Assembly: GCF_028737195.1 (NCBI RefSeq) | Contig: NZ_JAQZAJ010000006.1 | Coordinates: forward strand, 1 to 64,000 | Source of the DNA: Pseudovibrio exalbescens | GTDB lineage: Bacteria > Pseudomonadota > Alphaproteobacteria > Rhizobiales > Stappiaceae | DNA length: 64,000 nt | Reading direction: 5' to 3' | Part shown: positions 33,627-59,414 of the stretch, piece after piece | Position numbering within the stretch: the first letter of the stretch is position 1 | Layout of the letters: every line of letters starts with the position of its first letter | Made by a program: the position numbers and the translations under genes | Notes under the pieces: model-generated | What the model was told of the DNA's origin: nothing | The model's database searches: none | Seen by the model: the letters and a program-made list of their open reading frames with translations, nothing else

Positions 33627-33655
33627 TTGACCTCTAATGATTAGAGGCCTATGTA
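33627..33655 (+). promoter_or_regulatory. Operator palindrome within the NAGGN operon promoter
   Basis: CCTCTAAT-G-ATTAGAGG (33631-33647) is a perfect 17-bp palindrome. A possible promoter, TTGACC (33627-33632), 17 bases, TATGTA (33650-33655), brackets it, so a bound MarR dimer would block polymerase. The -10 match is poor (3/6); the palindrome itself is certain. Confidence 0.7.
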
Positions 33656-33693
33656 AAGCGCGTCAATCTGAATGTATGGAGGTAGAATTAGGT

Positions 33694-45180: not shown

Positions 45181-45807
45181 TCACTCGGGCTGCAATGCGC
45201 TGCGGAACAAGTGGTCGAGGAACTTGGAGGCGTCGGTGAAGCGGTGCTTTGCGCGTTTGCCCATCAGCTTTGTGACCTGCACGTCGAAGTCTGCATAGTG
45301 CTGGGTAGTGGACCAGATGGAAAACAGAAGATGGTAGGCGTCCACATCGGCGATCTTGCCCGCCTTTGACCAGCTTTCGATAAGGGCCGCTTTCTCATCC
45401 ACCATGGTTTTCAGCGGACCGGAGATCATCGGGCCAATGCGCGGTGCCCCTTGCAACATCTCGTTGGCGAACAGGCGGCTTTCGCGAGGGTAGTCACGTG
45501 CCATCTCCAGCTTGCGCTGGACGTAGGCGCAGATCTCCTCAATGGGGTCCCCTTCTTCACGGACCTGATGAAGCGGATCAAGCCAGATATAGAGCATGCG
45601 CTTGATCAGTTCGGCGTGGATCGCTTCCTTGTTGTCGAAGTAGTAGAGCAAGTTGGGTTTGGACAGGCCTGCCCGCTCGGCCACCTGATCAATGGTGGAG
45701 CCGCGAAAGCCGTAGGCAGAAAAAACATCCAGAGCGGCAGCAAGGATCTTCTCCGTCTTTTCCTGTTGAATGCGGGTTCTGCCCTTTGAGTTCGCAGCGC
45801 GTGCCAT
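45181..45807 (-). CDS. rutR: RutR-type TetR regulator of pyrimidine catabolism
   Basis: A 208-residue regulator that aligns with E. coli RutR throughout. The HTH is I-L-A-A-A-L-D-V-F-S with G-L-S-K-P-N-L-L-Y-Y-F-D-N-K-E-A. The ligand domain (about 80-200) has R-D-Y-P-R-E-S-R-L-F-A-N-E-M-L-Q-G-A-P and I-W-S-T-T-Q-H-Y-A-D-F, two blocks lining the uracil/thymine pocket in RutR. RutR leaves DNA when it binds uracil. It is the last gene on this strand, 282 bases beyond the F420-dependent oxidoreductase. RutR-like sites lie upstream of cofG and of the aminotransferase. It may have its own promoter. Confidence 0.9.
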   Translation of the reverse strand: MARAANSKGRTRIQQEKTEKILAAALDVFSAYGFRGSTIDQVAERAGLSKPNLLYYFDNKEAIHAELIKRMLYIWLDPLHQVREEGDPIEEICAYVQRKLEMARDYPRESRLFANEMLQGAPRIGPMISGPLKTMVDEKAALIESWSKAGKIADVDAYHLLFSIWSTTQHYADFDVQVTKLMGKRAKHRFTDASKFLDHLFRSALQPE

Positions 45808-46051
45808 GCCGGTTTGTCGTCCCGTTGGTTTGTTGTCAGGCCATATAGTACGGTGAAGTCTACATCCCGGTTCTCTTTATGAGAGCGTGACCAACGGTTG
45901 CAGGCCCAAAGTTGAACCTGCTGCACTCAGTCGCTCTCACCGCACAGTGACCTTTGAAGGAGCAAATAGCAGATCGTTCTGCCGCTGCCAAACGAACCTT
46001 CTGGGACGACCAAGGGTGAGGGCTCCAAGCTGTGCCCAACAGGGCAAGGCA

Positions 46052-46075
46052 ACCCGGCCCTGAGAAGAGCCGGGT
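46052..46075 (-). terminator. Hairpin at the end of the F420 operon
   Basis: ACCCGGC and GCCGGGT (46052-46058, 46069-46075) form a 7-bp stem just beyond the oxidoreductase stop. The U-tract is weak (TGCCTTGCC on the transcript), so it is a possible terminator or a stabilising hairpin before rutR. Confidence 0.45.
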
Positions 46076-46089
46076 GCATTCGCCAAGGA

Positions 46090-47118
46090 TCAGGCGGCGG
46101 CTTTCACCTTTGCCTTCTCGTTGAAGACCGGAATGATCTTGTCGCCATAATCCGCGATGATCTTCTCCTCGTCGCCGCTGTCCAGATAGATGTTGAACTG
46201 GGTAACGCCAGCAGCTTCAAGCTCGTTGAGCTTGGCGATGTGCTCATCCGGTGTGCCCAGAACACAGAACTCCTTCACGATGTCTTCCGTGATGAAGTCC
46301 AGATACGGGTTGTCGCTCTGGCCGTGCTTGGAATAGTCATAGCCGCGACGGTTCTCGATGTAGGAGGTCAGGCTGGAAGGGATGTCCTTGTTGTCGGTGC
46401 CGTATTTCTCGACAATGTCCGCCACGTGGTTGCCCACCATGGCCGGGAACCAGCGCACTTTCTCAATCGCCTCATCCAGCGGGCCGGTGTGAGCTGGGGC
46501 GGCAGCCATGACACGGAAGCCGGACATGTCGCGGCCCTCGGCGTTTCCAGCCTCTTTTGCCTGATCGGCAAGCCACTTGCAGATCTTTGGTTCCGCGATT
46601 TGCAGGATGAGACCATCGCCGACGCGGCCTGCCGAAGACAGCGCCTTTGGACCGTACGCTGCGACCCATACGGGCAGCTCGTACCCGGTGGCCCAAGGGA
46701 ACTTCACCGGCTCCGGACACTCGCCGTATTGCGCTTCGTCACCGCGCACCAGCGCCTTGACCACATGGGTGAATTCTTCAAGGCGTTTCAGCGGGGCAGG
46801 CTTCTTGCCCATGACGCGCACCGCGCTATCGCCGCGGCCAAGGCCAATGTCAAAGCGGCCGCCCGACTGCTTGGCGAGCGAGCCGAACATGGACGCGGCC
46901 AGCGACCAGTCGCGGGTGTTCGGATTGGTGACGCAGGGACCGAAGCGCATCTTTGTTGTGTGCTCCATGCACATAGCCATGGCCATGTAGCTCTCACGCC
47001 AAAGAATGTGGCTGTCGTAGAACCAGCAATAGGTGAAACCGGCGTTTTCGGCCTGACGTACAAGTGCGCGAGCGCGCTCAGGCTCTACAAAGCCCTTAAA
47101 GCAAATCCCAAACTCCAT
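46090..47118 (-). CDS. F420-dependent LLM-family oxidoreductase (CPS_4043 type)
   Basis: A 342-residue TIM-barrel protein of the luciferase-like family, F420 branch. It shows M-E-F-G-I-C-F-K-G, F-Y-D-S-H-I-L-W, R-F-G-P-C-V-T-N-P-x-T-R-D and the F420/substrate segment G-G-R-F-D-I-G-L-G-R-G-D-S-A-V-R, as in Mer-like enzymes. I place it near the proteobacterial CPS_4043 family, whose reaction I know to be unassigned. It is distinct from RutA, an FMN oxygenase of the same superfamily. It is the only LLM enzyme here, ends the F420 operon, and has a strong GAGGAG site. With RutR and reductive pyrimidine genes next door and no dihydropyrimidine dehydrogenase, reduction of the uracil C5-C6 bond by F420H2 is a plausible role. 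Function is otherwise unknown. Confidence 0.85.
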   Translation of the reverse strand: MEFGICFKGFVEPERARALVRQAENAGFTYCWFYDSHILWRESYMAMAMCMEHTTKMRFGPCVTNPNTRDWSLAASMFGSLAKQSGGRFDIGLGRGDSAVRVMGKKPAPLKRLEEFTHVVKALVRGDEAQYGECPEPVKFPWATGYELPVWVAAYGPKALSSAGRVGDGLILQIAEPKICKWLADQAKEAGNAEGRDMSGFRVMAAAPAHTGPLDEAIEKVRWFPAMVGNHVADIVEKYGTDNKDIPSSLTSYIENRRGYDYSKHGQSDNPYLDFITEDIVKEFCVLGTPDEHIAKLNELEAAGVTQFNIYLDSGDEEKIIADYGDKIIPVFNEKAKVKAAA

Positions 47119-47168
47119 AGTGCTACTCCTCTGGCAAGGTGTTGTTTTATATGGTTTTATCTAGATTT

Positions 47169-47837
47169 TCAGTGATCTGGTGCCCAGATCTTGATCCCGG
47201 CGTGGGTGAAGGGAACGGTCTTGGAAATGTTCTGGCGGATAAGGATGGGCGTGATGGCCTCAATGCAGCGTGCCGCCTGGGCGTTACCGGCGTTGTAGGT
47301 TTGCACCTCCAGTTTATCGACCAGCGCCATCACCTTCTTGCGCGCATCCAGCGAGTTGCCGCAGATGAGAATGTCGCAGTTGATCTTCCACTCCAGATTG
47401 TTGAGCGTGACCGCTGAAACGTTGTGCAGCGCGCCAATGACCGGAATGTCTGGGCCGAGCAGAGCTTGAGCCGCTTCGGTGGCTGAGCCTTCCGGTGGCA
47501 TTTCCACGAGCTTTGGATCGTTGGGCGCAAGCGGGACCACGATATCAACGAGGATCTTGCCCTCAAGCGCAGGCTTCAAAGCCTCAAGGGTGGCGTTGTG
47601 GGCTGCGAATGGCACGGCGAGAATGACGAACTCTTCCGCCGCTTCAGTTGCCGCCAGATTGTCCATGCCGGCAATTTCGGCAGAACCAGCAGGCAGTTTA
47701 GCTGCAAGTTCGCTCGCGATTTCCGCCGCGCGGGCCCCGTCACGGGAGCCGAGCACAACGCGCACACCGGCGCGGGCAAAGCGAAGCGCGAGACCCTGGC
47801 CTTGTGGGCCGGTGCCTCCGAGTATCGCAATGGTCAT
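47169..47837 (-). CDS. npdG: NADPH:F420 oxidoreductase
   Basis: A 222-residue Rossmann-fold enzyme that moves hydride between NADPH and F420. The dinucleotide loop [11 protein letters not shown] is at 7-17, followed by V-V-L-G-S-R-D near 27-33, with the Arg suited to NADPH phosphate. The family motif A-V-P-F-A-A-H sits near 74-80, and V-V-P-L precedes the F420-binding region. In this locus it would recharge F420H2 for the adjacent LLM enzyme. It overlaps cofE by four bases and ends 50 bases before the LLM gene. Confidence 0.9.
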
Positions 47838-48646
47838 TTGAACATGTCCTCCTTCTGGGCGCGAAGCAGATGCGCCGCGCTGCTTGTTGTTTCCTGCCAG
47901 TCCAGCCCCCGGAACAGCACCACCGGGGTTTGGGCTGCTTTGCGAATGACGAGGCCAGAAGCGGCGGCAAGTTCGTCGGCAAAGGCGGGTTCGGTGACAC
48001 TGAGCAGGCGGCCGTAGGCGTCTTCATTGCCTTGCTCCTTGATGGTTGCAGGAACGCCCGCAAGCCCGACGGCCACGTTGACCTGCCCAAGGCGCCATGG
48101 GCGGCCAAAGGTGTCCGTGATGGCAACACCGATCCGCGCCCGGAAGCGCCTTGACAGCGCATCACGCAGCGCACGGGCGCTGGCATCCGGGTCTTTGGGC
48201 AGGAGAATGAGCGCGCCATCCTCCCCGGTGTTGGACTCATCAACGGCGGCATTCGCCGACTTGAAACCGAGCCGGTGCTCGCAGATCATGGTGCCTTCGC
48301 GCTGCGCAGGGTGCTTGAAGGCTTTGACCACGGACCGGCTCTCGCGCAGGATGACCTCCACCTTGCGCGGATCCTTGTTCAGCATTGCAGCGTAACGGTG
48401 GGCCTCTTCCCCGGGCGTGACGTCGGCCATGTTCACCACACAGCCCTCAGCCTTTGAGAAGATCTTGTGCGCGGAGGTGATGACATCCCCATCCACCAGA
48501 TGCAGGCCCGCGCGTTCCAGGCAATCGCCAATGATCTGAGGGAGATTGTCCCCCTCATGGATTTCCGGGATGCCCGGTACCGCTGCCATCTGTAGGGTGC
48601 ACAGCCCGGACTGGGGCGCGAACGGGTTGGGGATCGCTGAGTTCAT
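47834..48646 (-). CDS. cofE: Coenzyme F420 gamma-glutamyl ligase
   Basis: A 270-residue ligase that adds glutamates to F420-0 with GTP. CofE motifs: [17 protein letters not shown] near 52-68, [22 protein letters not shown] near 130-138, [10 protein letters not shown] and [10 protein letters not shown]. It has the single-domain size of archaeal CofE and lacks the C-terminal FMN domain of actinobacterial FbiB. So the final dehydro-F420 reduction, done by that domain in actinobacteria, is not covered by it. It overlaps cofC and npdG by four bases each. Confidence 0.92.
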
Positions 48647-49335
48647 GATGGTGACCTCACAACACTGCCGGTTGCACCTCGACCCGCCGCCGGTTTTCCT
48701 TCAGAGAAACCGGGCAGGTGGAGGGCCAGATCCGTTGAGGTGTCAATGTCCTGCGCAATGCCCGGTAACGGCAGAATGCGCGTGGAAAGGCCAAGGCGCT
48801 CTGCATGGGCAAGATGGCGGTGGAACGACTTGTTGCCGTATGCAAACGGCAGCGCGGTTGGAGGGGACACCAGCAGCGCGTTGGTGCCCTGATCGTGCGC
48901 AGGACACAAAACCACGCTGCGCTCTGCCATCTCGCAGGAAAGCAAGCGGGTGAACTCGGCCTCATCATGATCAGCGATATCAGCTGGCACTACACAAAGC
49001 GTGTGATAGCCACTGGCGGCGGCCCACTGTGCTGCGGCACTTACTGCGCCATTGAGCCCCTCGCAAGCATCCTCTGGCAATGTGTAGGCGCCGTGAGCGC
49101 GCGCCAAATCAGCAACCTGCTCACTGCCGGTGACAACAAGAAGATCGTAGCGAATACCTGACGTTTTCCGAAAGGCGCTGAAGAAGGCAAGTGTCTGTTT
49201 GTAAAGGCCCATGGCAAGACGCTTGCGCGCTTCCTCCGGCAAGACGGTTGCCAGACGGGACTTGGCAAACTGCGGGTCCTTCATGGGGATGGCAATCAGC
49301 AGTCTTGATTGGGGGAGCGCCTGATGCGGTGTCAT
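48643..49335 (-). CDS. cofC: Phospholactate/phosphoglycerate-type guanylyltransferase
   Basis: A 230-residue nucleotidyltransferase. It opens L-L-I-A-I-P-M-K-D-P-Q-F-A-K-S-R-L, the CofC/FbiD nucleotide loop, and has G-L-N-G-A-V and V-V-P-A-D-I-A with the metal Asp, then G-T-N-A-L-L-V. It activates a three-carbon acid phosphate (2-phospholactate, phosphoenolpyruvate or 3-phosphoglycerate in different organisms) with GTP for CofD. Which acid is used here cannot be read by eye. It overlaps both neighbours by four bases. The C-terminal 20 residues are low in similarity. Confidence 0.88.
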   Translation of the reverse strand: MTPHQALPQSRLLIAIPMKDPQFAKSRLATVLPEEARKRLAMGLYKQTLAFFSAFRKTSGIRYDLLVVTGSEQVADLARAHGAYTLPEDACEGLNGAVSAAAQWAAASGYHTLCVVPADIADHDEAEFTRLLSCEMAERSVVLCPAHDQGTNALLVSPPTALPFAYGNKSFHRHLAHAERLGLSTRILPLPGIAQDIDTSTDLALHLPGFSEGKPAAGRGATGSVVRSPS

Positions 49336-50312
49336 GGCAAGGCCTCCACATGGTAGTCCGACATGGCAAACCCATAGTCCAGAACCGCATGAGCAAGACG
49401 GATCTTGTCTTTTTTGGAGCGCATGAGGATGTCTTCGCTGAAGGCCGCAATGCCGAGGGCCTCAATGTTTTTGGCGCTGTCAGCGTCCTGCCGATCAATC
49501 ACCAACGCATCAATGATCTGCGCATAATGACGGGCAATGCCCAGGGCGCTGGCCTCTAGCCCAAGGGATGCCATCATTCTGTCTGCAGGGCCTTTCACCA
49601 CACCGCCTGCAATGATTGGGCTGACAGCAATCTTGCGGGCAGGGGCATTGAGGAGCGCCTCCTTGATGCCCGGAATTGCCAGAATGGGCCCAATGCTCAC
49701 AAGCGGGTTGGATGGTGCAAAGACGATCAGGTCCGCCGCCTCAATTGCAGCCAAGGTTTCCGAAGTGGGCCTTGCCTGCTCTACTCCCTCAAACGAAAGT
49801 GCGCGCACATCTGGTGCGCACCTCAGTTTGACGAAGTACTCCTGAAACGAAATAGATCCGTCGTCGGTCTGGACGCGGGTTTGAACCACGTCGTCGGTGG
49901 GCAGCAGAAGAGGAACTGAAACGCCAAGTGACGTGGCTATGTCTGCTGCGATTTGTGAGGGGCGATCACCCTTTGCCCGGCGCGCCGTGCGGTAAATGTG
50001 CAGGCCGAAGTCCTTGTCGCCAAGGAACATCCAGGTATCTGCGCCCAAGGACTTGAGCATTGTGAGTGCGCGGTCGCCCTCATCGGCAAGCCCCCAACCC
50101 TGCTGCCGATTGATGACGCCAGCCAGAGAGTAGGTCAGGGTGTCAATGTCTGGAGAGACCCAAAGACCATGGAAGGCCTCATCATCTGCAATGTTGCCGA
50201 TGATCTTCAAGTCGATGCCCGCAATCCCTGCAAGGCCTTCTGCCATCTTGGCACCGCCGACGCCGCCAGCAAGCAGAACAACCTTGGGCTTTTCGAGCAG
50301 TTGGCAACACAT
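49332..50312 (-). CDS. cofD: 2-phospho-L-lactate transferase-type F420 synthesis enzyme
   Basis: A 326-residue enzyme that transfers the activated acid to Fo. CofD marks: V-V-L-L-A-G-G-V-G-G-A-K near the N-terminus, I-G-N-I-A-D-D-E, the S-P-D-I-D-T-L-T-Y-S-L-A-G block, T-D-D-x-V-x-T, F-A-P-S-N-P-L-V-S-I-G-P-I-L and V-S-P-I-I-A-G-G-V-V-K-G-P. The start at 50312, four bases after the cofH stop, gives the family N-terminus; the frame is open further inside cofH but is not coding there. It is coupled to cofC by overlap. Confidence 0.92.
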   Translation of the reverse strand: MCCQLLEKPKVVLLAGGVGGAKMAEGLAGIAGIDLKIIGNIADDEAFHGLWVSPDIDTLTYSLAGVINRQQGWGLADEGDRALTMLKSLGADTWMFLGDKDFGLHIYRTARRAKGDRPSQIAADIATSLGVSVPLLLPTDDVVQTRVQTDDGSISFQEYFVKLRCAPDVRALSFEGVEQARPTSETLAAIEAADLIVFAPSNPLVSIGPILAIPGIKEALLNAPARKIAVSPIIAGGVVKGPADRMMASLGLEASALGIARHYAQIIDALVIDRQDADSAKNIEALGIAAFSEDILMRSKKDKIRLAHAVLDYGFAMSDYHVEALP

Positions 50313-50316
50313 CAGC

Positions 50317-51624
50317 TCATGCTCCTGTTGCAGTCTGTGGGGCGACTTCTGGGAACATCTCCAAAAAATCCAGTGGTTGATGCTGGGCCTTCCGCTCCAC
50401 CAAAGGCTTCTGCTCTTTGGGGTCGTGATGCTCGAAGCATTCCAGCTCCCGGTAGACCGTGTTGCGCTGATAGGGGACGCGTCCTGCGCTGCGGATGATC
50501 TGCACCATTTCGTGGGCGGTGATTTCCTGACCATGGTCTGACCCCGCGGCCCGAGAAATGCTCTCGTTCATCAAGGTGCCGCCCAGATCATTGACGCCGT
50601 AGGCAAGCAAAGCGCGGGCGCGTTCTGCGCCGAGCTTGGTCCAAGACACCTGAATGTTGTCGATCCAGCCATGCAGCATGATGCGGCTCACCGCGTGCAT
50701 CTTGTCCACCTCGTTGGCGGTCGGCCCCTGACGCACCTTCTCCGGGTTCTCCAGATAAAGCGGGCTGTCCGTATGAACGAAACTGAGGGGAACCAGCTCC
50801 GTGAAACCGCCCGTGTCTTTTTGAATGTCGCGCAGCAAGGCGATGTGGGCGGCCCAATGTTCCGGACCATCAATGTGGCCGTACATGATGGTTGCAGTGG
50901 TCGGAATGCCAACACTGTGGGCGGCGCGGATGATCTCTATCCAGTTCTCTGTGCTCAGCTTGTTGCGGGTCAGCTGCCTGCGAATTTCCGTATCAAGGAT
51001 TTCGGCGGCAGTGCCGGGCATGGAGCCAAGGCCGCATTCTTTGAGATCCTGCAGGAAGTCGGCAAACGACATGCGCCGTTTTTGCGCCCCATACCAGACC
51101 TCATAGGGGGAGAAGGCATGAAGGTGCATATCCGGCAGAGCTGCCTTGATGGCGAGACAGATATCCCGGTAGTAGGTGCCATCCATTTTCGGATGGAGGC
51201 CTCCTTGAATGCACAGCTCTGTTGCGCCCCGGTCCCATGCTTCCTGAGCGCGGCCCACGATCTGCTCAAGCGTTAGCCACTCTGCCCCCGCATCTTCCGT
51301 GCGCTTGGCAAAGCCACAGAACCTGCAGCCCATGTAGCATACATTGGTGAAGTTGATGTTCCGATTGACAACGAAGCCAACCCGATCGCCATTGGTACGC
51401 GCGCGCAGGGCATCCGCTGTGCGCAAAATAGCCTGCAAGTCAGCGCCTTGTGCTTCAAAAAGCGTTTTGCCCTGCGCTTGGGACACTTCGCCGTCATCAA
51501 GAACCAGCTCCAAGGCGCTGCGCACGGGCGCGGACAGCCCGGCGCTGTCGACCCCAAGACTTTCAAGAGAAACGTTGTGCCGGGTGGATGCCAAAGGCAC
51601 CACATTGTCAAAAGCGTGGGTCAT
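50317..51624 (-). CDS. cofH: Fo synthase subunit 2, radical SAM
   Basis: A 435-residue radical SAM enzyme that, with CofG, makes the deazaflavin Fo from tyrosine and a ribitylaminouracil. The cluster motif is C-Y-M-G-C-R-F-C (Cys96, Cys100, Cys103) and L-C-I-Q-G-G-L-H-P and H-A-F-S-P-Y-E follow. Actinobacteria fuse CofG and CofH as FbiC; here they are separate, as in archaea and cyanobacteria. It overlaps cofG by four bases. The extra C-terminal tail of about 40 residues is not conserved. The Fo precursor is itself a pyrimidine, an interesting but probably accidental link to uracil metabolism. Confidence 0.93.
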   Translation of the reverse strand: MTHAFDNVVPLASTRHNVSLESLGVDSAGLSAPVRSALELVLDDGEVSQAQGKTLFEAQGADLQAILRTADALRARTNGDRVGFVVNRNINFTNVCYMGCRFCGFAKRTEDAGAEWLTLEQIVGRAQEAWDRGATELCIQGGLHPKMDGTYYRDICLAIKAALPDMHLHAFSPYEVWYGAQKRRMSFADFLQDLKECGLGSMPGTAAEILDTEIRRQLTRNKLSTENWIEIIRAAHSVGIPTTATIMYGHIDGPEHWAAHIALLRDIQKDTGGFTELVPLSFVHTDSPLYLENPEKVRQGPTANEVDKMHAVSRIMLHGWIDNIQVSWTKLGAERARALLAYGVNDLGGTLMNESISRAAGSDHGQEITAHEMVQIIRSAGRVPYQRNTVYRELECFEHHDPKEQKPLVERKAQHQPLDFLEMFPEVAPQTATGA

Positions 51625-52760
51625 TGGGTGCCTCCTGCAACCTGGTGACGGGCAAGGCCATCGGCACGGGCCATGGCTGTTGCACGGGACACCAACTTTT
51701 CATCAAGAAATTGCTGTGGTTTCTTCAGATAGGCGGGATAGACCGTGAGCCGTTCCTGCAGGGTAAGGCCCGCCTCGGCGCTGGCCTGTGCAAGCCGGTC
51801 GATCTGCGGCCATTCGTGTTGGGGATTGATGTAGTCAATGGTGACGGGCGAAATGCCGCCCCAGTCATTGATGCCAGCGGCAAGATAATCGGCGTGGCGC
51901 TTGTGCAGGTTGGGCGGTGCTTGAATGCTGATCGTGGGCGAAAGCATGAGGCGGGCCACGGCCAATGTGAGCAGCATGTCATCAAGGGTGGGCTCAGGAT
52001 GGTTCGCCATGGCGATGTCCGGCTTACGCTGGAAGTTCTGAATGATGACTTCCTGTATATGGCCGTACTGCCTGTGCGCTTCGTTGATGGCGAAGAGGGC
52101 TTCAATACGCTCTTCCCAGGTTTCGCCGATGCCGATGAGCAGACCTGTTGTGAAGGGGACGCTTTTTTGACCCGTGCGCTCGAGCGTTCTGAGGCGTTGC
52201 AGGGGCACTTTGTCGGGGCAGGCGTAGTGCGCTTCCCCTTTTTTCGTCAGCCGCTTGCTTATGGTTTCAAGCATCATGCCCATGGAGGCGCTGACAGGGC
52301 GCAGCTGGTCGATCTCATCGTCTGCCAATGTGCCCGCGTTCACGTGGGGCAGCAGGGAGGTTTCATCCAGCACCAACTGGCACATTTCCGCCAGATAGGT
52401 CACCAAGGAGTCGTGACCGAGCATGTTCAGCGCCTTGCGCGCCTTCTCATAGCGCAGCTCCGGCTTTTCTCCGAGGCTGAACAGAAGTTCCTTGCAGCCT
52501 GCGGCCTCACCCCGCCTTGCAACGGCCAGCACCTGGTCCGGCGACATGATGGTTGCCTCTGGGTGATCCGGATGTTTGACAAAAGTGCAATACGCACAGG
52601 TGTCCCTGCACATATTGGTAAGAGGTACGAACACTTTGCGCGAATACGTCACGGTATCGCCCCAGTGGGCGCGGCGTACTTCGCAGGCCGCTTGCATCAG
52701 TTCCTCTAGGACAGCTGGTGAGGCATCAGCGAGCATTTTCGCGTCATGAAGTGAAATCAT
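51621..52760 (-). CDS. cofG: Fo synthase subunit 1, radical SAM
   Basis: A 379-residue radical SAM enzyme. The cluster-binding motif C-R-D-T-C-A-Y-C-T-F gives Cys51, Cys55 and Cys58. F-V-P-L-T-N-M-C precedes it, and K-E-L-L-F-S-L-G-E-K-P-E and T-T-G-L-L-I-G-I-G-E-T are CofG blocks. It is the first gene of the F420 operon. AGGAGG (minus strand, 52769-52774) lies eight bases before the ATG, and the promoter region carries a two-armed inverted repeat of RutR-like sites. Confidence 0.93.
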   Translation of the reverse strand: MISLHDAKMLADASPAVLEELMQAACEVRRAHWGDTVTYSRKVFVPLTNMCRDTCAYCTFVKHPDHPEATIMSPDQVLAVARRGEAAGCKELLFSLGEKPELRYEKARKALNMLGHDSLVTYLAEMCQLVLDETSLLPHVNAGTLADDEIDQLRPVSASMGMMLETISKRLTKKGEAHYACPDKVPLQRLRTLERTGQKSVPFTTGLLIGIGETWEERIEALFAINEAHRQYGHIQEVIIQNFQRKPDIAMANHPEPTLDDMLLTLAVARLMLSPTISIQAPPNLHKRHADYLAAGINDWGGISPVTIDYINPQHEWPQIDRLAQASAEAGLTLQERLTVYPAYLKKPQQFLDEKLVSRATAMARADGLARHQVAGGTQ

Positions 52761-52764
52761 AAAT

Positions 52765-52809
52765 TTTACCTCCTGATAAAAAATTTATCGGTAGGTAAAA
52801 ATCTGTCAA
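52765..52809 (-). promoter_or_regulatory. cofG promoter with two RutR-like sites
   Basis: On the minus strand TTGACA (52804-52809), a 16-base spacer and TAAATT (52782-52787, 4/6) form a likely promoter. Two 16-bp sites of the form TTTATC-N4-GGTAAA lie at 52784-52799 (plus strand) and 52765-52780 (minus strand), facing each other around AAA. One covers the -10 and spacer, the other covers the expected transcription start and the AGGAGG. This is standard repressor placement. The sites relate to the E. coli RutR box TTGACCANNTGGTCAA at about nine of 14 positions. Confidence 0.7.
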
Positions 52810-53443
52810 CTCGGATTTCGTGATGCGCGCAGCAAGATGACCCTAGGTTATTGAAATGGTTGAAAATAAAATTTTGCGCAATCAAAGTTTGAATATTACT
52901 GGAAAATATCACAATGATATCGAATTGATCAAAAAATAGAAGAATGATTAATGCATGTGCGACGGTTGAATATTTTTATTGCTTATACGAGATTCGGGTC
53001 TGAAGGTGCATGATTCATTGACTGGCGACAGTGATTGATGCCGGTGAGACTGCTCCAGCGAAAAAATTATTTGACCATAAGATAAAAATATATTCCCTTA
53101 TGACGCAAGGTGATGCGCGGGGAGGGGCCTTGACCTTTATGCTCATTGAAGCGGATGGCAGCAAGTTGCATGGTCCGAAACGAAAGATGAGCATTTGCGG
53201 GAGCGAAAATGCGAATCCGTTTCATCCATCGTGTTTTGTTTAAAGAGGAGCTGCCGACCCTACGAGAGTACATAATAATTCCGGGAGGAGGGTTTGTAGA
53301 GGGCTGAGATGCGCAAATTTTAGCGTATGCAGGCCAAATAATAACCATGCTTACCTGATTGAAATTCTAAATAAAAAACTTTGATGAGCCCAGAAAAAGG
53401 GCGTTGATACGCAGAGCAGCGCCAATCTGATAAATCAGGATTG
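52810..53443. other. AT-rich intergenic region with one internal RutR-like site
   Basis: More than 600 bases lie between the two divergent promoters. I find no credible gene. One site (53071-53086, TTGACCATAAGATAAA) matches the RutR box at 11 of 14 positions and, read on the other strand, is TTTATC-TTAT-GGTCAA. A short frame at 53031-53243 has no good ribosome binding site. A small RNA or far-upstream regulatory DNA is possible but nothing shows it. Confidence 0.55.
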
Positions 53444-53486
53444 TTGACTAGACTGCAAAATCCATCAGAATTTATCAAATGGTCAA
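53444..53486 (+). promoter_or_regulatory. Promoter of the pyrimidine operon with RutR-like box
   Basis: TTGACT (53444-53449), 16 bases and CAGAAT (53466-53471) make a candidate promoter. TTTATCAAATGGTCAA (53471-53486) matches the E. coli RutR box at 12 of 14 positions and would overlap the transcription start. The aminotransferase ATG is 20 bases downstream. Confidence 0.75.
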
Positions 53487-53505
53487 AAAAGGCCAGGAGG
53501 GGACT

Positions 53506-54834
53506 ATGAGTGAAGCTTCCACATCGGCACCAAATGACTTGAGCGCATTCTGGATGCCGTTCACGTCCAACCGCCAGTTCAAGCGTGAACCCCGCATGTT
53601 TGTTGCTGCTGAGGGCATGTACTATACCACGGCGGATGGGCGTCAGGTGCTGGATGGAACCGCTGGGCTTTGGTGTGTGAATGCAGGGCACAAACAGCCA
53701 AAGATTGTTGAAGCCATTCAGAAACAAGTGGCGGAACTGGACTATGCGCCCGCATTTCAAATGGGGCATCCGAAGGCGTTCGAGCTGGCAAACCGGCTGG
53801 CCGATTTGGCGCCGGGTGATCTGAACCACGTGTTCTATACCAACTCCGGTTCGGAGTCGGTTGAGACCGCGCTGAAAATTGCCATTGCTTACCATCGGGC
53901 CAAAGGGCAGGGCTCGCGCACCCGGCTGGTGGGCCGCGAACGCGGCTATCATGGTGTGAACTTCGGCGGCATCTCGGTAGGCGGGATCGTCAACAACCGG
54001 CGTCATTTCGGCAGCCTGCTGACAGGCGTTGATCACCTTCCGCATACACATCTGCCGGAGAAGAATGCCTTTACCCGCGGAATGCCGGAGCACGGTATGG
54101 AGCTGGCTGACGAGCTGGAGCGCATTGTTGCGTTGCACGGGCCGGAGACTGTGGCGGCGTGTATTGTGGAGCCGATGGCCGGTTCTACCGGGGTGCTGTT
54201 CCCGCCGAAGGGGTATCTGCAACGCCTGCGTGAGATCACCAAGAAGCATGGCATTCTGCTGATTTTTGACGAGGTGATCACTGCGTTTGGCCGCCTTGGC
54301 GCGCCGTTTGCAGCAGACTACTTTGGTGTCCAGCCGGACATGATCACCACGGCAAAGGGCCTGACCAACGGCATTGTGCCCATGGGGGCTGTGCTGGCGA
54401 GTGATGAAATCCACGACGCATTCATGAACGGCCCGGAATACATGATCGAGCTGTTCCACGGCTACACCTATTCCGGTAACCCGCTGGCTTCGGCGGCAGG
54501 TCTCGCCTCGCTGGACGTTTACAAGGAGCAGCAGCTTTTTGAGCGTGCGCATGAGCTGGCCCCTTATTGGCAGGAGGCGTTGTTCAGCCTGAAGGATCAT
54601 CCCTTTGTGATCGACATCCGCTGCGGGGGCTTGATCGGCGCGGTAGAGCTGGAGCCGATCGCGGGTGAGCCAACCCGGCGTGCGTTCAGCGCGTTCCTGA
54701 AGGCCTATGAAAAGGGTGTGCTGATCCGCACTACGGGCGACATCATTGCGATGTCACCGCCGCTGATCATTGAAAAGCACGAGATAGACACCTTGATCGG
54801 CACGCTTGGGGACGTCCTGAAGTCACTGGACTGA
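53506..54834 (+). CDS. Omega-amino acid:pyruvate aminotransferase (beta-alanine type)
   Basis: A 442-residue class III PLP aminotransferase. The N-terminal W-M-P-F-T-S-N-R-Q-F and D-G-T-A-G-L-W-C-V-N-A-G-H are those of beta-alanine:pyruvate transaminases. The cofactor sites are F-Y-T-N-S-G-S-E-S-V-E-T-A (near 110-122), F-D-E-V near 254-257 with Asp255, and Lys284 in T-T-A-K-G-L-T-N-G. It would convert beta-alanine, the end product of uracil breakdown, to malonic semialdehyde. AGGAGG precedes ATG 53506; an ATG at 53479 falls inside the operator and is not used. First gene of the plus-strand operon. Confidence 0.9.
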   Translation: MSEASTSAPNDLSAFWMPFTSNRQFKREPRMFVAAEGMYYTTADGRQVLDGTAGLWCVNAGHKQPKIVEAIQKQVAELDYAPAFQMGHPKAFELANRLADLAPGDLNHVFYTNSGSESVETALKIAIAYHRAKGQGSRTRLVGRERGYHGVNFGGISVGGIVNNRRHFGSLLTGVDHLPHTHLPEKNAFTRGMPEHGMELADELERIVALHGPETVAACIVEPMAGSTGVLFPPKGYLQRLREITKKHGILLIFDEVITAFGRLGAPFAADYFGVQPDMITTAKGLTNGIVPMGAVLASDEIHDAFMNGPEYMIELFHGYTYSGNPLASAAGLASLDVYKEQQLFERAHELAPYWQEALFSLKDHPFVIDIRCGGLIGAVELEPIAGEPTRRAFSAFLKAYEKGVLIRTTGDIIAMSPPLIIEKHEIDTLIGTLGDVLKSLD

Positions 54835-54986
54835 CACTCATTTTCGGTGGCGGGGAAACCCGCCGCCTAAAGCCGCACGCGACACTTATAACAACATCAC
54901 CTTCCGACGCGTGCAGACCGTGAAAATCATCAAGACGAGGGGCGCGCGCACGGCTGCCCGTGACCACTCACGTTTGGGGGAGAGCA

Positions 54987-56255
54987 ATGAGCAATCCAGG
55001 GTCCAACCACCGCATCGACGCAGACCGTCTATGGGACAGCCTGATGGCAATGGCCAAGATTGGCCCGGGTGTGCGCGGTGGATGCAACCGGCAAACCTTG
55101 ACCGACGAGGATGCGGAGGGCCGCCGCCTGTTCACCAAGTGGTGTGAGGAGGCGGGCATGACCATGGCCATCGACAGCATGGGCAACATGTTTGCCCGTC
55201 TTGAAGGGACCAATCCGGACCTTGATCCGGTCATGATCGGGTCGCACCTCGATACACAGCCAACAGGCGGCAAGTATGATGGTGTGCTGGGTGTTTTGGC
55301 AGGCCTTGAAGTGGTGCGCTCCATGCGCGATCAGGGCATCAAGACCGAGCGCTCCATTGAAGTGGTAAACTGGACCAATGAGGAAGGCACCCGCTTTGCC
55401 CCGGCCATGCTGGCCTCGGGCGTGTTTGCAGGCGTGCACAGCCAAGAGTGGGCCTACGACCGGGAAGATGCTGAAGGCAAGAAGTTTGGCGATGAGCTGA
55501 AGCGTATTGGCTATGTGGGCGAAGAGCCTGTGGGCCAGCGCAAGCTGCATGCAATGTTTGAGTTGCACATTGAGCAGGGCCCTATTCTGGAAGCGGAACA
55601 AAAAGACATCGGCGTTGTCACCCACGGGCAGGGCTTGTGGTGGCTGGAAGTGACGCTGACCGGCAAGGACAGCCACACCGGCTCAACCCCCATGGGCATG
55701 CGCAAGAATGCCGGTCTGGGAATGGCCCGCATCACCGAGCTGGTGCACCAGATCGCCATGGAAAACCAGCCGGAGGCTGTGGGGGCGATCGGCCATTGCG
55801 ACGTCTATCCCAACTCTCGAAACGTGATCCCGGGCAAGGTGGTGTTCACCATCGATTTCCGCTCCCCCCACCAGAACGTGCTGGATGGCATGAAGGCAAA
55901 GCTGGAAGCAGAAGCGCCGAAGATTGCTGCGGAGCTGGGACTGGGCATAGACATTGCGGTTGTCGGCCATTTTGATCCCGTGACCTTTGACCCTGCGTGC
56001 GTATCCAAGGTGCGGGAGGCAGCCGAACGACTGGGCTACTCGCACCAAAACATCATTTCCGGTGCGGGTCATGACGCCTGTTGGATCAATCGACTTGCGC
56101 CCACAGCCATGATCATGTGCCCCTGTGTGGATGGTCTTAGTCACAACGAGGATGAGGAGATCACCAAGGACTGGGCCAAGGCGGGGGCCGATGTTCTCTA
56201 CCATGCGGTGCTGGAAACGGCTGGCATCGTCGAGACAGCCGAGCTTGCGGAATAA
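54987..56255 (+). CDS. N-carbamoyl-beta-alanine amidohydrolase/hydantoinase-type carbamoylase
   Basis: A 422-residue metallohydrolase of the M20 amidase/hydantoinase family. It splits N-carbamoyl-beta-alanine to beta-alanine, CO2 and ammonia. Metal-site blocks: I-G-S-H-L-D-T-Q-P-T-G-G-K-Y-D-G-V-L-G, T-N-E-E-G-T-R-F-A-P and F-E-L-H-I-E-Q-G-P-I-L-E, and G-A-G-H-D-A near the end. The H-L-D-T-Q-P-x-G-G-K form is the usual carbamoylase type. Related allantoate and carbamoyl-amino-acid hydrolases cannot be fully excluded. The start at 54987 follows GGGGGAGAG; an upstream frame to 54960 is less likely. Confidence 0.88.
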   Translation: MSNPGSNHRIDADRLWDSLMAMAKIGPGVRGGCNRQTLTDEDAEGRRLFTKWCEEAGMTMAIDSMGNMFARLEGTNPDLDPVMIGSHLDTQPTGGKYDGVLGVLAGLEVVRSMRDQGIKTERSIEVVNWTNEEGTRFAPAMLASGVFAGVHSQEWAYDREDAEGKKFGDELKRIGYVGEEPVGQRKLHAMFELHIEQGPILEAEQKDIGVVTHGQGLWWLEVTLTGKDSHTGSTPMGMRKNAGLGMARITELVHQIAMENQPEAVGAIGHCDVYPNSRNVIPGKVVFTIDFRSPHQNVLDGMKAKLEAEAPKIAAELGLGIDIAVVGHFDPVTFDPACVSKVREAAERLGYSHQNIISGAGHDACWINRLAPTAMIMCPCVDGLSHNEDEEITKDWAKAGADVLYHAVLETAGIVETAELAE

Positions 56256-56259
56256 AAAC

Positions 56260-56299
56260 AGGGCGCTGCTCTCCCGAACGCGGGATGAGACAGCGCCCT
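56260..56299 (+). other. Intercistronic hairpin between amidohydrolase and dihydropyrimidinase
   Basis: AGGGCGCTG (56260-56268) pairs with CAGCGCCCT (56291-56299) over a loop that itself holds a small CCCG/CGGG dyad. Only three T follow, so it is likely a processing or stability element more than a full terminator. Confidence 0.6.
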
Positions 56300-56321
56300 T
56301 TCCATAGAAGGAGGGACAACA

Positions 56322-57776
56322 ATGACAACAGTTATCAAGGGCGGCACGATTGTAACCGCTGATCTGACCTATGAGGCGGATGTTCTGATTGAAGGCGATC
56401 GCATTGTGGAGATTGGCGAGAACCTGACTGGCGATACGGTGCTGGATGCCAGCGGCTGCTATGTGATGCCGGGCGGGATCGACCCCCACGTGCACCTTGA
56501 AATGCCCTTCATGGGGACTTTTTCTGCGGACAATTTCGAGAGCGGTACGCGCGCAGGCCTTGCTGGCGGAACGACCATGGTGGTGGACTTTTGCCTGCCT
56601 ACCCCGGACCAATCTCTGTTGGAGGCGCTGGAGATCTGGGAGCGCAAGTCGGGCGCGGCGAACTGCGACTACTCCTATCACATGGCGATCACCTCCTGGA
56701 ACGAGCAGATTTTCAACGAGATGCAACAGGTTGTCGATCGAGGCATCAACACCTTCAAGCACTTCATGGCCTACAAGGGGGCCTTGATGGTGGACGACGA
56801 CGAGATGTTTGACTCATTCCGTCGCTGCGCGGCCATTGGCGCCATGCCCTTGGTACATGCCGAGAACGGCGACGTGGTTGCCACCATGCAGCAAAAACTG
56901 CTGGAAGAAGGCAACAACGGTCCTGAGGCCCATGCCTATTCTCGCCCTGCTGAAGTGGAGGGGGAAGCCGCCAACCGCGCAATCATGATTGCCGACATGG
57001 CAGGTGTGCCGCTTTACATCGTGCATACATCCTGTGAGCAAGCGCATGAGGCCATTCGCCGTGCGCGCCAGAAGGGAATGCGCGTGTTCGGAGAGCCGTT
57101 GATCCAGCATCTGACACTAGACGAAAGCGAGTACAAGCACCCGGATTGGGACCATGCTGCACAGCGCGTCATGTCGCCGCCGTTCCGCAACAAGGCGCAT
57201 CAGGACAGTCTGTGGGCCGGCTTGCAGGCGGGGTCCTTGCAGGTGGTGGCGACGGACCACTGCGCTTTCTCCATTGAGCAGAAGCGCTTTGGCATTGGTG
57301 ACTTCACCAAGATCCCCAATGGCACCGGTGGCCTGGAAGACCGTATGCCCATGCTTTGGACCCATGGTGTGGGGACCGGCCGGCTCACCATGAACGAGTT
57401 CGTGGCCGTGACCTCCACCAACATTGCAAAGATCTTGAACATCTACCCTCGCAAGGGGGCCATTTTGGAAGGCGCGGATGCAGACATTGTGGTGTGGGAT
57501 CCGAACCGGTCCAAGACCATCAGCGCGACCAGCCAGCAATCGGTGATCGAATACAACGTGTTCGAAGGCAAGGAAGTGACCGGCCTTCCGCGCTTTACCC
57601 TGACACGTGGCCGTGTTGCCATTGAAGAAAACATGGTGAAGGCCGAACCCGGAAAGGGCGAGTTCATCGCTCGTGATGCCTATCCCGCCGTGCATTCGGC
57701 GCTCACAAAATGGAAGGAGCTAACTGCGCCGCGCAAAGTTGAGCGCAAGGCGGAGAACATGCCTGCGGGCGTATAA
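56322..57776 (+). CDS. Dihydropyrimidinase
   Basis: A 484-residue binuclear zinc amidohydrolase that opens dihydrouracil to N-carbamoyl-beta-alanine. Metal ligands: His56 and His58 in D-P-H-V-H-L-E, the carboxylated Lys152 in F-K-H-F-M-A-Y-K-G-A, His179 in V-H-A-E-N, His235 in V-H-T-S-C and Asp312 in A-T-D-H-C. The M-A-Y-K-G and Y-I-V-H-T blocks favour dihydropyrimidinase over allantoinase. D-hydantoinases are very close relatives, so activity on hydantoins is also possible. It follows the amidohydrolase and precedes the permease, giving a two-step ring opening and decarbamoylation unit. Confidence 0.92.
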   Translation: MTTVIKGGTIVTADLTYEADVLIEGDRIVEIGENLTGDTVLDASGCYVMPGGIDPHVHLEMPFMGTFSADNFESGTRAGLAGGTTMVVDFCLPTPDQSLLEALEIWERKSGAANCDYSYHMAITSWNEQIFNEMQQVVDRGINTFKHFMAYKGALMVDDDEMFDSFRRCAAIGAMPLVHAENGDVVATMQQKLLEEGNNGPEAHAYSRPAEVEGEAANRAIMIADMAGVPLYIVHTSCEQAHEAIRRARQKGMRVFGEPLIQHLTLDESEYKHPDWDHAAQRVMSPPFRNKAHQDSLWAGLQAGSLQVVATDHCAFSIEQKRFGIGDFTKIPNGTGGLEDRMPMLWTHGVGTGRLTMNEFVAVTSTNIAKILNIYPRKGAILEGADADIVVWDPNRSKTISATSQQSVIEYNVFEGKEVTGLPRFTLTRGRVAIEENMVKAEPGKGEFIARDAYPAVHSALTKWKELTAPRKVERKAENMPAGV

Positions 57777-57911
57777 AGACCCTGTGCGCACCCGCCGTCT
57801 TGGTGGTGCAAGAGACACTGTCAGGACGGCCTTGAACCGTGCCAGCGAATGACACCAGCAAACAACCAGAGGGGCGTTGGTTGGCACACGTTAGAAACGG
57901 GAGCATATCAA

Positions 57912-59414
57912 ATGACCAAATCTGCTGCGACGATGGGGCAGGATGCTTACACCACCGACGAGTTTGGCATTGTCCATCAAAAACTGAGCGGCATTGACGC
58001 CGAGCTTTACAATGAAGACCAGCTGCCAACTTCCATGCAGGCGCGCACTTGGGACTGGGTTTCCATCTCGGCCTTGTGGGTCGGCATGGTGGTTTGTATC
58101 CCAACCTATTTGCTTGCCTCCTATCTTATCGGTGCGGGCATGTCCTGGGATCAGGCGGTTTTCACCATCTTGCTGGCGAACGCCATCGTGCTCATTCCGA
58201 TGGTTTTGATTGGCCACGCGGGCACAAAATACGGCATTCCGTTCCCGGTCTTGCTGCGATCGTCCTTCGGCCCGGTGGGCGCAAAAATTCCCGCTGTTGC
58301 GCGTGGCATTGTGGCCTGTGGCTGGTTCGGCATTCAGACTTGGGTCGGCGGGTCAGCCATCTACGTGATCCTCAACACCTTGACCAGCGGCGGCATTGCC
58401 AGTGATCCGCTGCCCATTCTTGGCATCAATATTGGTCAGTTCATCTGTTTCCTCGCGTTCTGGGGTTTGCATCTGTACTTCATCCGCAATGGCACAGAGT
58501 CCATTCGCTGGCTCGAAACCTATGCGGCGCCCTTCCTGCTTTTGATGGGCTTTGCCTTGCTGGCATGGGCCTACTTCAGAGCCGGTGGTTTTGGCGAAAT
58601 GCTGTCCACGCCAAGCGCATTTGATCCGGGGCAACCAAAGGAGGGGCAGTTCTGGGCCGTGTTCTGGCCAAGCTTGACCGGCATGGTCGGCTTCTGGGCG
58701 ACATTGGCGCTGAACATTCCCGACTTCACCCGCTATGCCAAGAGCCAGAGGGACCAGTTCATGGGCCAAGCCATTGGTCTGCCTATCCCAATGGCGCTGT
58801 TTGCCTTCATCGCTTCTGCCGTGACATCGGCGACCGTCGTGATCTTCGGTGAGGCGATCTGGGATCCGATCCAGCTGGCAGAGCGCATGGGGGGTGCCAG
58901 CATCATCATCGCCTTGATCGCGCTTGTCGTTGCCACCTTGACCACCAATCTTGCGGCGAATGTGGTGGCACCAGCCCATGGTTTCTCCAACTTGGCTCCC
59001 AAGGCCATCAACATGCGTGTGGGCGGTTACATAACTGCCGGTATCGGCATTGTGATGTTCCCGTGGATACTGGTGAACCATATCGTTGGCTGGCTGATCG
59101 CATACTCGGCACTGCTGGGCCCGATCGCGGGTGTGATGTTGGCGGATTACTATCTTCTTCGGAAAACCAAGCTGAACGTGACGGACCTGTTCCGCATGAA
59201 GGGCATTTATGAAGGCTCAAACGGCTGGAACTGGGCGGGCATCGGTGCGTTGATCATCGGCATTCTGCCAAACCTGCCGGGCTTCATGGCGGGCGTGGGT
59301 CTGGTTGATGGAACCTCAGATTTGTTTGCGACCATCTATACCTATGCCTGGTTCGTTGGCTTGTTTGTGGCCGGGATCGCCTATCTGATCCTTGCCAAGA
59401 TCTTGAACAAGTAA
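57912..59414 (+). CDS. NCS1-family nucleobase/hydantoin permease
   Basis: A 500-residue inner-membrane symporter with about 12 helices. NCS1 features: a hydrophilic N-terminus, then W-V-S-I-S-A-L-W-V-G-M near helix 1, G-H-A-G-T-K-Y-G-I-P-F-P-V-L-L-R-S-S-F-G and G-W-F-G-I-Q-T-W-V-G-G, where the Trp/Gln residues form the nucleobase site, and N-I-P-D-F-T-R-Y-A near helix 8. Substrate is probably uracil, another pyrimidine base or a hydantoin. ATG 57912 follows GGGAG; the frame is open from 57849 but the extra part is unlike the family. Last gene of the pyrimidine unit before a terminator. Confidence 0.9.
   Translation: MTKSAATMGQDAYTTDEFGIVHQKLSGIDAELYNEDQLPTSMQARTWDWVSISALWVGMVVCIPTYLLASYLIGAGMSWDQAVFTILLANAIVLIPMVLIGHAGTKYGIPFPVLLRSSFGPVGAKIPAVARGIVACGWFGIQTWVGGSAIYVILNTLTSGGIASDPLPILGINIGQFICFLAFWGLHLYFIRNGTESIRWLETYAAPFLLLMGFALLAWAYFRAGGFGEMLSTPSAFDPGQPKEGQFWAVFWPSLTGMVGFWATLALNIPDFTRYAKSQRDQFMGQAIGLPIPMALFAFIASAVTSATVVIFGEAIWDPIQLAERMGGASIIIALIALVVATLTTNLAANVVAPAHGFSNLAPKAINMRVGGYITAGIGIVMFPWILVNHIVGWLIAYSALLGPIAGVMLADYYLLRKTKLNVTDLFRMKGIYEGSNGWNWAGIGALIIGILPNLPGFMAGVGLVDGTSDLFATIYTYAWFVGLFVAGIAYLILAKILNK

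Follow-up and report, generated by a model that had tools for sequence, protein, structure and literature searches.

An F420-dependent luciferase-like protein as the candidate first enzyme of a reductive pyrimidine pathway in Pseudovibrio exalbescens and other marine bacteria

Which enzyme supplies the reduced ring to the dihydropyrimidinase encoded in a gene locus (positions 45181 to 59414) of the window, the stretch of 64,000 nucleotides of Pseudovibrio exalbescens contig NZ_JAQZAJ010000006.1 that was analysed here? All 12 genes named in the initial annotation were present; they run outward in two divergent sets from an intergenic stretch spanning roughly 52761-53505. One set encodes a TetR-family regulator, an LLM-class (luciferase-like) oxidoreductase, the F420 reductase NpdG and five proteins of F420 synthesis, and the other encodes the aminotransferase AptA, an M20 amidohydrolase, the dihydropyrimidinase and an NCS1 symporter (Table 1). 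The LLM protein had been read in the initial annotation as an F420H2-dependent reductase of uracil or thymine, and this reading gained support from the absence of PreA, the co-occurrence of LLM with dihydropyrimidinase, and the presence of PreTA in the same slot of related loci. The locus very probably represents a complete reductive pyrimidine pathway, in which the first step is performed by an F420H2-dependent LLM-class uracil/thymine reductase that replaces PreTA and is recharged by NpdG. The family to which the LLM protein belongs, TIGR03842, is likely to be an F420H2:pyrimidine 5,6-reductase, one polypeptide that would stand in for the iron-sulfur dihydropyrimidine dehydrogenase without being homologous to it.

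The source genome (26 contigs, 99.96% complete) was searched for a conventional uracil enzyme. PreA was not found genome-wide, as the best match to the model 'NAD-dependent dihydropyrimidine dehydrogenase subunit PreA' reached 124 bits against a cut-off of 335 (PreT was not separately searched), and RutA (TIGR03612) had no match at E<=1e-60 (the other rut genes were not searched). A preTA pair elsewhere in the genome, the alternative offered in the initial annotation, was excluded for this genome through the absence of PreA. Two DHO_dh proteins were detected genome-wide. One was a class-1B PyrD (350 bits with NF005574, cut-off 269) and the other, read from its sequence without a profile scan, was a class-2-like PyrD; the LLM protein carries PF00296 only and no DHO_dh domain. 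The class-1B PyrD and its PyrK-like partner (contig C11) might be considered as the uracil reductase, being one of just two DHO_dh proteins in the genome, but this is extremely improbable: the profile identifies a dihydroorotate dehydrogenase, the neighbouring genes include one for an M20 amidase and others that, read without a profile scan, look like pyrC, pyrE and a TRAP transporter gene, and the ten other LLM genomes of the same genus (g1, probably Pseudovibrio or close to it) have no such protein among the PreA-model matches listed, their best being 1.6e-12 to 2.5e-8 against 6e-36 for the class-1B PyrD. The run of genes on C11 (L003:5715-13518), comprising class-1B PyrD, the PyrK-like subunit and the M20 amidase with adjoining genes read as PyrE, PyrC and a TRAP transporter, possibly serves the uptake and reductive breakdown of orotate.

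The distribution of the LLM protein and PreA above their model cut-offs was examined in 87 genomes of the GTDB family (inferred to be Stappiaceae). The LLM gene was present in 16 genomes (15 above the TIGR03842 cut-off, plus G017, in which the gene is split in two frames) and PreA was above the cut-off in 68. Fifteen genomes harboured LLM without PreA, 67 PreA without LLM, one (G064) both and four neither (Fisher p=2e-12, uncorrected for phylogeny). Dihydropyrimidinase, counted at E<=1e-100, was present in 84 genomes; the three genomes without it (G018, G020 and G027) all lacked both reductases, and in the last of the four, G076 (85% complete), a fragment of PreA some 41 residues long stood at the end of a contig. 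LLM (G017 included) or PreA above the cut-off was thus found in 83 of the 84 dihydropyrimidinase genomes, the remaining one being that with the fragment. The co-occurrence in other genomes that the initial annotation had proposed to examine was observed in this family, LLM being found with dihydropyrimidinase and almost never with PreA. CofD matched LLM genome for genome: all 16 LLM genomes had it, and the 71 others lacked it.

PreA was missing from 4 of the 45 genomes of genus g6 (probably Roseibium), and all four harboured LLM (p=3e-5). In this genus the LLM gene lay on a different contig from the dihydropyrimidinase gene, or 380 kb away from it, and linkage is consequently not the explanation of the exclusion pattern. 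Ten of the 11 g1 genomes with LLM had the two genes within about 10 kb of each other, and none of the five g6 genomes with it did; in G026, a g1 genome of about 980 contigs, they were on different contigs. Of the family's 68 PreA genomes, 19 had PreA and dihydropyrimidinase within about 14 kb of each other by coordinates. The Rut pathway was rejected as the family's route, RutA being matched (E<=1e-60) in a single genome of the 87, G055, which has PreA and no LLM. In G017 (94% complete; C1:233351-243432), LLM and dihydropyrimidinase each extend over two reading frames, reflecting either sequencing errors or decay.

The exchange of one reductase for the other was seen at the level of the locus. 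In Ruegeria atlantica HKCCD9103, preT-preA is followed by TetR(-), M20(+) and dihydropyrimidinase(+) in one locus (L140), and cofG-H-D-C-E-npdG-LLM is followed by the same three genes in the same orientations in another (L080). PreTA was accompanied by TetR, AptA, M20 and dihydropyrimidinase in L123, L125 and L127, and by TetR, M20 and dihydropyrimidinase in L139 and L140; these four genes were not near PreA in the other six neighbourhoods (L120, L121, L122, L124, L126 and L128). The M20 and dihydropyrimidinase genes directly follow LLM in L111 and L116. The repetition of this gene arrangement in related loci indicates more than chance.

A second lineage was provided by the 48 genomes of genus g161 (the genus of G234, probably Marinomonas), using thresholds of E<=1e-40 for LLM and E<=1e-80 for a local dihydropyrimidinase. 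LLM was present in 24 genomes, PreA in none, and dihydropyrimidinase in 25, namely the same 24 and G547. As the G547 contig starts at cofC, just before the expected cofE-npdG-LLM, the expected LLM stretch lies off the contig, and this genome was not counted as support. Because the genes are linked in this genus, the locus has been gained or lost as a whole and LLM is the only reductive candidate, so that these counts do not constitute an independent functional test. In a phylum sample (E<=1e-60), LLM was detected in 3 of 397 genomes including the source genome, too few for a test.

LLM loci were distributed across marine bacteria, including SAR116, roseobacters, Pseudovibrio and Marinomonas. 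Eighty of 197 loci (1.47 Mb in total) were retained for comparison, and the window genes were sought in them by tblastn at E<=1e-15. CofE was found in 72 loci, CofD in 71, NpdG in 69, CofC and CofH in 60 each and CofG in 58; the constant element across the loci is LLM and not the F420 cluster. Dihydropyrimidinase was present in 41 loci (two at just 28% identity), M20 in 40 (three at 32-33% identity), TetR in 36, AptA in 19 (14 of them at 33% identity or less and so not orthologues) and NCS1 in 15. Many of the loci are cut by contig ends, and absences are therefore of little meaning.

Operator-like sites were counted at up to two mismatches to the RutR-type consensus of Escherichia coli in the form used here, on which all the site counts depend. 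Forty sites were found in the 80 loci. When every second locus was considered, 17 sites were counted against 0-7 for 12 permuted palindromes, and 11 were upstream of pathway genes against 0-1 for the permuted palindromes. Eleven of the 58 loci with cofG had a site upstream of that gene. The corresponding counts were 6 of 80 for LLM, 4 of 36 for TetR and 3 of 40 for M20; none was upstream of AptA (19 loci) or dihydropyrimidinase (34 loci). The fetched PreTA loci had sites upstream of preT (for example L121, L123 and L125) and between TetR and aptA or M20 (L123 and L140). In two Roseibium genomes with unlinked genes (L130/L144 and L129/L141), a site with two mismatches accompanied LLM and a perfect site the aptA-M20-dihydropyrimidinase locus. 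The site in the window at 53471-53486, TTTATCAAATGGTCAA, is identical to one that precedes LLM by about 100 bases in L075 (Roseibium polysiphoniae), and 11 matches with up to three mismatches were found in the whole window against 3.06 expected. Taxon-specific changes of the RutR motif are described in a passage of an earlier study (PMC5343134).

These observations bear on the possibility that LLM and the F420 genes serve an unrelated reaction, such as detoxification or redox balance, while an unrecognised enzyme reduces uracil. LLM-class enzymes are diverse and the activity proposed for this one is a prediction, but the swap with PreTA, the unlinked exclusion in g6, the shared RutR-type sites and the exact co-occurrence of CofD and LLM make such a role very unlikely.

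The AlphaFold2 model of the LLM protein had a mean pLDDT (predicted local distance difference test score) of 85 and a pTM (predicted template modelling score) of 0.88. Its best Foldseek matches in the PDB were structures of Mer, the F420-dependent methylene-tetrahydromethanopterin reductase (E of about 1e-20 to 1e-22, 26-29% identity; the best 1.3e-22 at 27% identity), and Mer was also the nearest solved relative by profile (128 bits). The score with the Mer family model TIGR03555 was 128.7 bits, below the cut-off of 348.7. According to passages on the Mer structure (PMC11094777), Glu6 is the acid that protonates the substrate and Asp96 touches the pyrimidine ring of the pterin. The position of Glu6 was Cys in 19 and Thr in 5 of 24 aligned sequences; all 24 have Asp97 where Mer has Asp96, and Gln173 at the carboxamide position. 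The latter was used just as a carboxamide, the paper giving Gln178 for Mer and the aligned PDB chain having Asn at 178. With Glu6 replaced, and Asp97 and Gln173 kept, the protein is not a Mer, but to judge from the alignment it may retain the part of Mer by which a pyrimidine ring would be placed next to F420. F420 binding is predicted, with indirect indications in the Mer-like fold and in the restriction of CofD to the 16 of 87 genomes that have LLM. A different activity, that of a RutA-like monooxygenase opening the ring oxidatively, is brought to mind by RutA also being luciferase-like and acting on uracil, and by the RutR-like regulator. It is given next to no probability, since RutA was unmatched in the source genome at the threshold above, the 11 PDB sequences matched at E<=1e-5, of which the best were F420 reductases, did not include it, and the linked dihydropyrimidinase works on a reduced ring.

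Several results weigh against an LLM reductase that simply replaces PreTA. Exclusion was not significant in g1 alone (p=0.08), and genome counts are not phylogenetically independent. Most loci lack a close RutR-type site by the consensus used. The regulator, termed RutR-type in the initial annotation, does contain the YcdC-type domain PF08362 but scored under both RutR cut-offs (TIGR03613, 229.8 against 368; PRK15008, 208 against 230), and from its sequence is RutR-like only. When PreA and the copies of dihydropyrimidinase were counted in 49 genomes from the 80 loci, PreA was above the cut-off in 18, mostly roseobacters, which weakens a plain statement of replacement: LLM is not always the sole reductase, and a distinct substrate is possible in these genomes. 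They were assigned to Limimaricola, Leisingera, Epibacterium, Tritonibacter, Thalassovita, Shimia, Ruegeria and Roseibium (MMSF_3412), and also included contigs labelled Nocardioides. Two genomes (G508 and G514) had both reductases and one dihydropyrimidinase. In G516 (Roseisalinus antarcticus, L082), LLM and F420 genes were present, PreA was not above the cut-off and no dihydropyrimidinase was found at E<=1e-100, an exception to the pattern. Paracoccus denitrificans DSM 413 (L055, G497) yielded LLM and no PreA. With regard to the labels, the L053 contig, recorded as Nocardioides marinus DP1N28-1, fell inside Leisingera in the LLM tree, and this record is likely mislabelled.

Dihydropyrimidinase copies followed the reductases in most of these genomes. 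In 17 of the 18 genomes with both reductases, a dihydropyrimidinase gene began no more than about 6.2 kb from PreA; two copies of more than 60% identity were present in 16 of the 18, whereas 30 of the 31 LLM genomes without PreA had one copy of more than 50% identity. Assuming one LLM per genome, the number of copies (>50% identity) equalled the sum of PreA and LLM in 46 of the 49 genomes. The second copy was beside LLM in L042, L054 and L080; most other loci end too early. It might be that LLM reduces a related ring that feeds dihydropyrimidinase (thymine only, a modified pyrimidine or another cyclic ureide) rather than uracil generally, which would account for the roseobacters with both PreTA and LLM loci and agrees with the 18 PreA-containing genomes, 16 of them with two dihydropyrimidinases. 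This is unlikely, as LLM occurs without PreA in 31 of the 49 genomes and in 15 of the 16 of the family, most of which have just one orthologous dihydropyrimidinase, and preTA loci share the same type of operator.

In the preferred pathway, the reaction, substrate, F420 binding and induction of which we infer, NCS1 would bring the base into the cell and the LLM protein would reduce the 5,6 double bond of uracil or thymine with a hydride taken from F420H2. NpdG would remake F420H2 using NADPH, with the cofactor itself being produced by CofC, D, E, G and H. Dihydropyrimidinase would then open the ring, the M20 amidohydrolase would free beta-alanine (or beta-aminoisobutyrate) and AptA would transaminate these products, the RutR-like regulator turning on the gene set when pyrimidine is present. 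As a whole, comparative genomics gives good support to the reading in the initial annotation, which is a prediction at the biochemical level.

The F420 genes varied among the 80 loci. Seven loci had no NpdG match at the tblastn threshold and their cof genes were arranged differently. They formed one group in the LLM tree (Shimodaira-Hasegawa-like approximate likelihood ratio test, SH-aLRT, 98; quick method), and the six sites upstream of LLM belonged to six of them. Eleven loci of uncultured marine Alphaproteobacteria (L092, L096, L099, L100, L101, L103, L104, L106, L107, L109 and L110) presented the order CofD-CofE-NpdG-LLM, with no CofG, CofH or CofC match within the locus at E<=1e-15. The M20 and dihydropyrimidinase genes came after LLM in ten of these, L106 ending early. 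Such loci may depend on FO uptake, or the genes may be elsewhere. Downstream of LLM in L130 (10672-17222, Roseibium) were mevalonate-pathway genes, for an HMG-CoA reductase-like protein, a mevalonate kinase-like protein and diphosphomevalonate decarboxylase.

Gene calls in the window were made by comparing NCBIfam profile scores with the curated cut-offs, and the genes and strands of the initial annotation were all confirmed (Table 1). Every locus protein except the regulator reached the cut-off of its named family, including dihydropyrimidinase, itself a member of the reductive pyrimidine pathway. In NCBIfam, TIGR03842 carries the label of a hypothetical equivalog. The M20 protein matches the hydantoinase/carbamoylase family, and its action on N-carbamoyl-beta-alanine is putative. 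The mechanical starts of CofD, AptA and M20 look too early. For CofD, the open reading frame extends to 50534 and the TIGR01819 match begins at residue 85 of this long frame, a start at 50312 being more likely. AGGAGG immediately precedes position 53506, the more likely start of AptA, and for M20, listed from a GTG at 54960, a start at 54987 is more likely. Elsewhere in the window, an osmolyte synthesis gene for N-acetylglutaminylglutamine amidotransferase was found at 33637-35469 (TIGR03104, 964 bits, cut-off 570), and the two genes downstream of it, at 35473-38429, look like its partners when read without a profile scan.

Table 1. Features of the pyrimidine locus in the window, with profile scores and cut-offs
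Feature	Coordinates	Strand	Evidence
TetR-family RutR-like regulator, 208 aa	45181..45807	-	TIGR03613 229.8 bits, cut-off 368; PF08362 YcdC-like C-terminal domain
LLM-class F420-dependent oxidoreductase, 342 aa, proposed F420H2:uracil/thymine reductase	46090..47118	-	TIGR03842 508 bits, cut-off 295.45
NpdG, NADPH-dependent F420 reductase	47169..47837	-	TIGR01915 184.7 bits, cut-off 149.8
CofE, F420-0:L-glutamate ligase	47834..48646	-	TIGR01916 240.6 bits, cut-off 180.65
CofC, guanylyltransferase of F420 synthesis	48643..49335	-	TIGR03552 143.5 bits, cut-off 105
CofD, F420 synthesis	49332..50312	-	TIGR01819 281 bits, cut-off 257
CofH, FO synthase subunit	50317..51624	-	TIGR03551 507 bits, cut-off 374
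CofG, FO synthase subunit	51621..52760	-	TIGR03550 471 bits, cut-off 213
RutR-type operator-like site	53471..53486	undefined	2 mismatches to the E. coli consensus as used here
AptA-type omega-aminotransferase (putatively for beta-alanine / beta-aminoisobutyrate)	53506..54834	+	NF052567 762 bits, cut-off 500
M20 N-carbamoyl amidohydrolase (putative beta-ureidopropionase)	54987..56255	+	TIGR01879 407 bits, cut-off 204
Dihydropyrimidinase	56322..57776	+	TIGR02033 599 bits, cut-off 393
NCS1 nucleobase:cation symporter	57849..59414	+	TIGR00800 365 bits, cut-off 353; PF02133

The system would be a reductive pyrimidine pathway with a non-homologous first enzyme. Among the matches listed from the open-licence literature, none linked TIGR03842 or proteobacterial F420 to pyrimidine breakdown. 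In a 2021 review (PMC8498797), no F420-dependent enzyme from bacteria outside Actinobacteria is said to have been studied experimentally, Paracoccus denitrificans is stated to make only traces of F420, and the reason for F420 in Proteobacteria is listed as an open question. In a taxonomy paper on Stappiaceae, F420 synthesis genes were noted in one species only. If true, the proposed pathway would give F420 a concrete, testable role in Proteobacteria and the curated 'hypothetical' family TIGR03842 a function. It might explain the mere traces in P. denitrificans, and would be a third attack on the pyrimidine ring, beside reduction by PreTA/PydA and oxygenation by RutA. As LLM loci occur in many kinds of marine bacteria, it would have a bearing on nucleobase turnover in seawater.

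Among known systems, PreTA/PydA performs the same predicted step, with TetR, M20 and dihydropyrimidinase neighbours, an aminotransferase in some loci and the same type of operator-like site. The proteins are non-homologous, however: PreA is a DHO_dh-fold, flavin mononucleotide (FMN) and iron-sulfur protein partnered with PreT, whereas LLM is luciferase-like and presumably draws on F420H2. Mer is the nearest solved relative by sequence and fold, and is an F420H2 reductase whose Asp96 and carboxamide positions are kept in LLM, but LLM has Cys or Thr at the catalytic Glu6 and is far under the Mer cut-off. RutA shares the luciferase-like family and acts on uracil; it is an FMN monooxygenase, and its model was unmatched in the source genome at E<=1e-60. 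Uracil reduction with an alternative electron donor is also described for Clostridium PydAc, which depends on ferredoxin (PMC7332683) but is a PydA homologue and not an LLM protein. A putative F420-dependent yanthine reductase of Chloroflexota (PMC12507026), whose genomic context led to the proposal that it takes over from a DHO_dh-type or YgfK reductase, is likewise a luciferase-family F420 protein in a reductive ring-opening pathway. It is likened to LLM by description only, and differs in belonging to a purine (uric acid) pathway and to another phylum.

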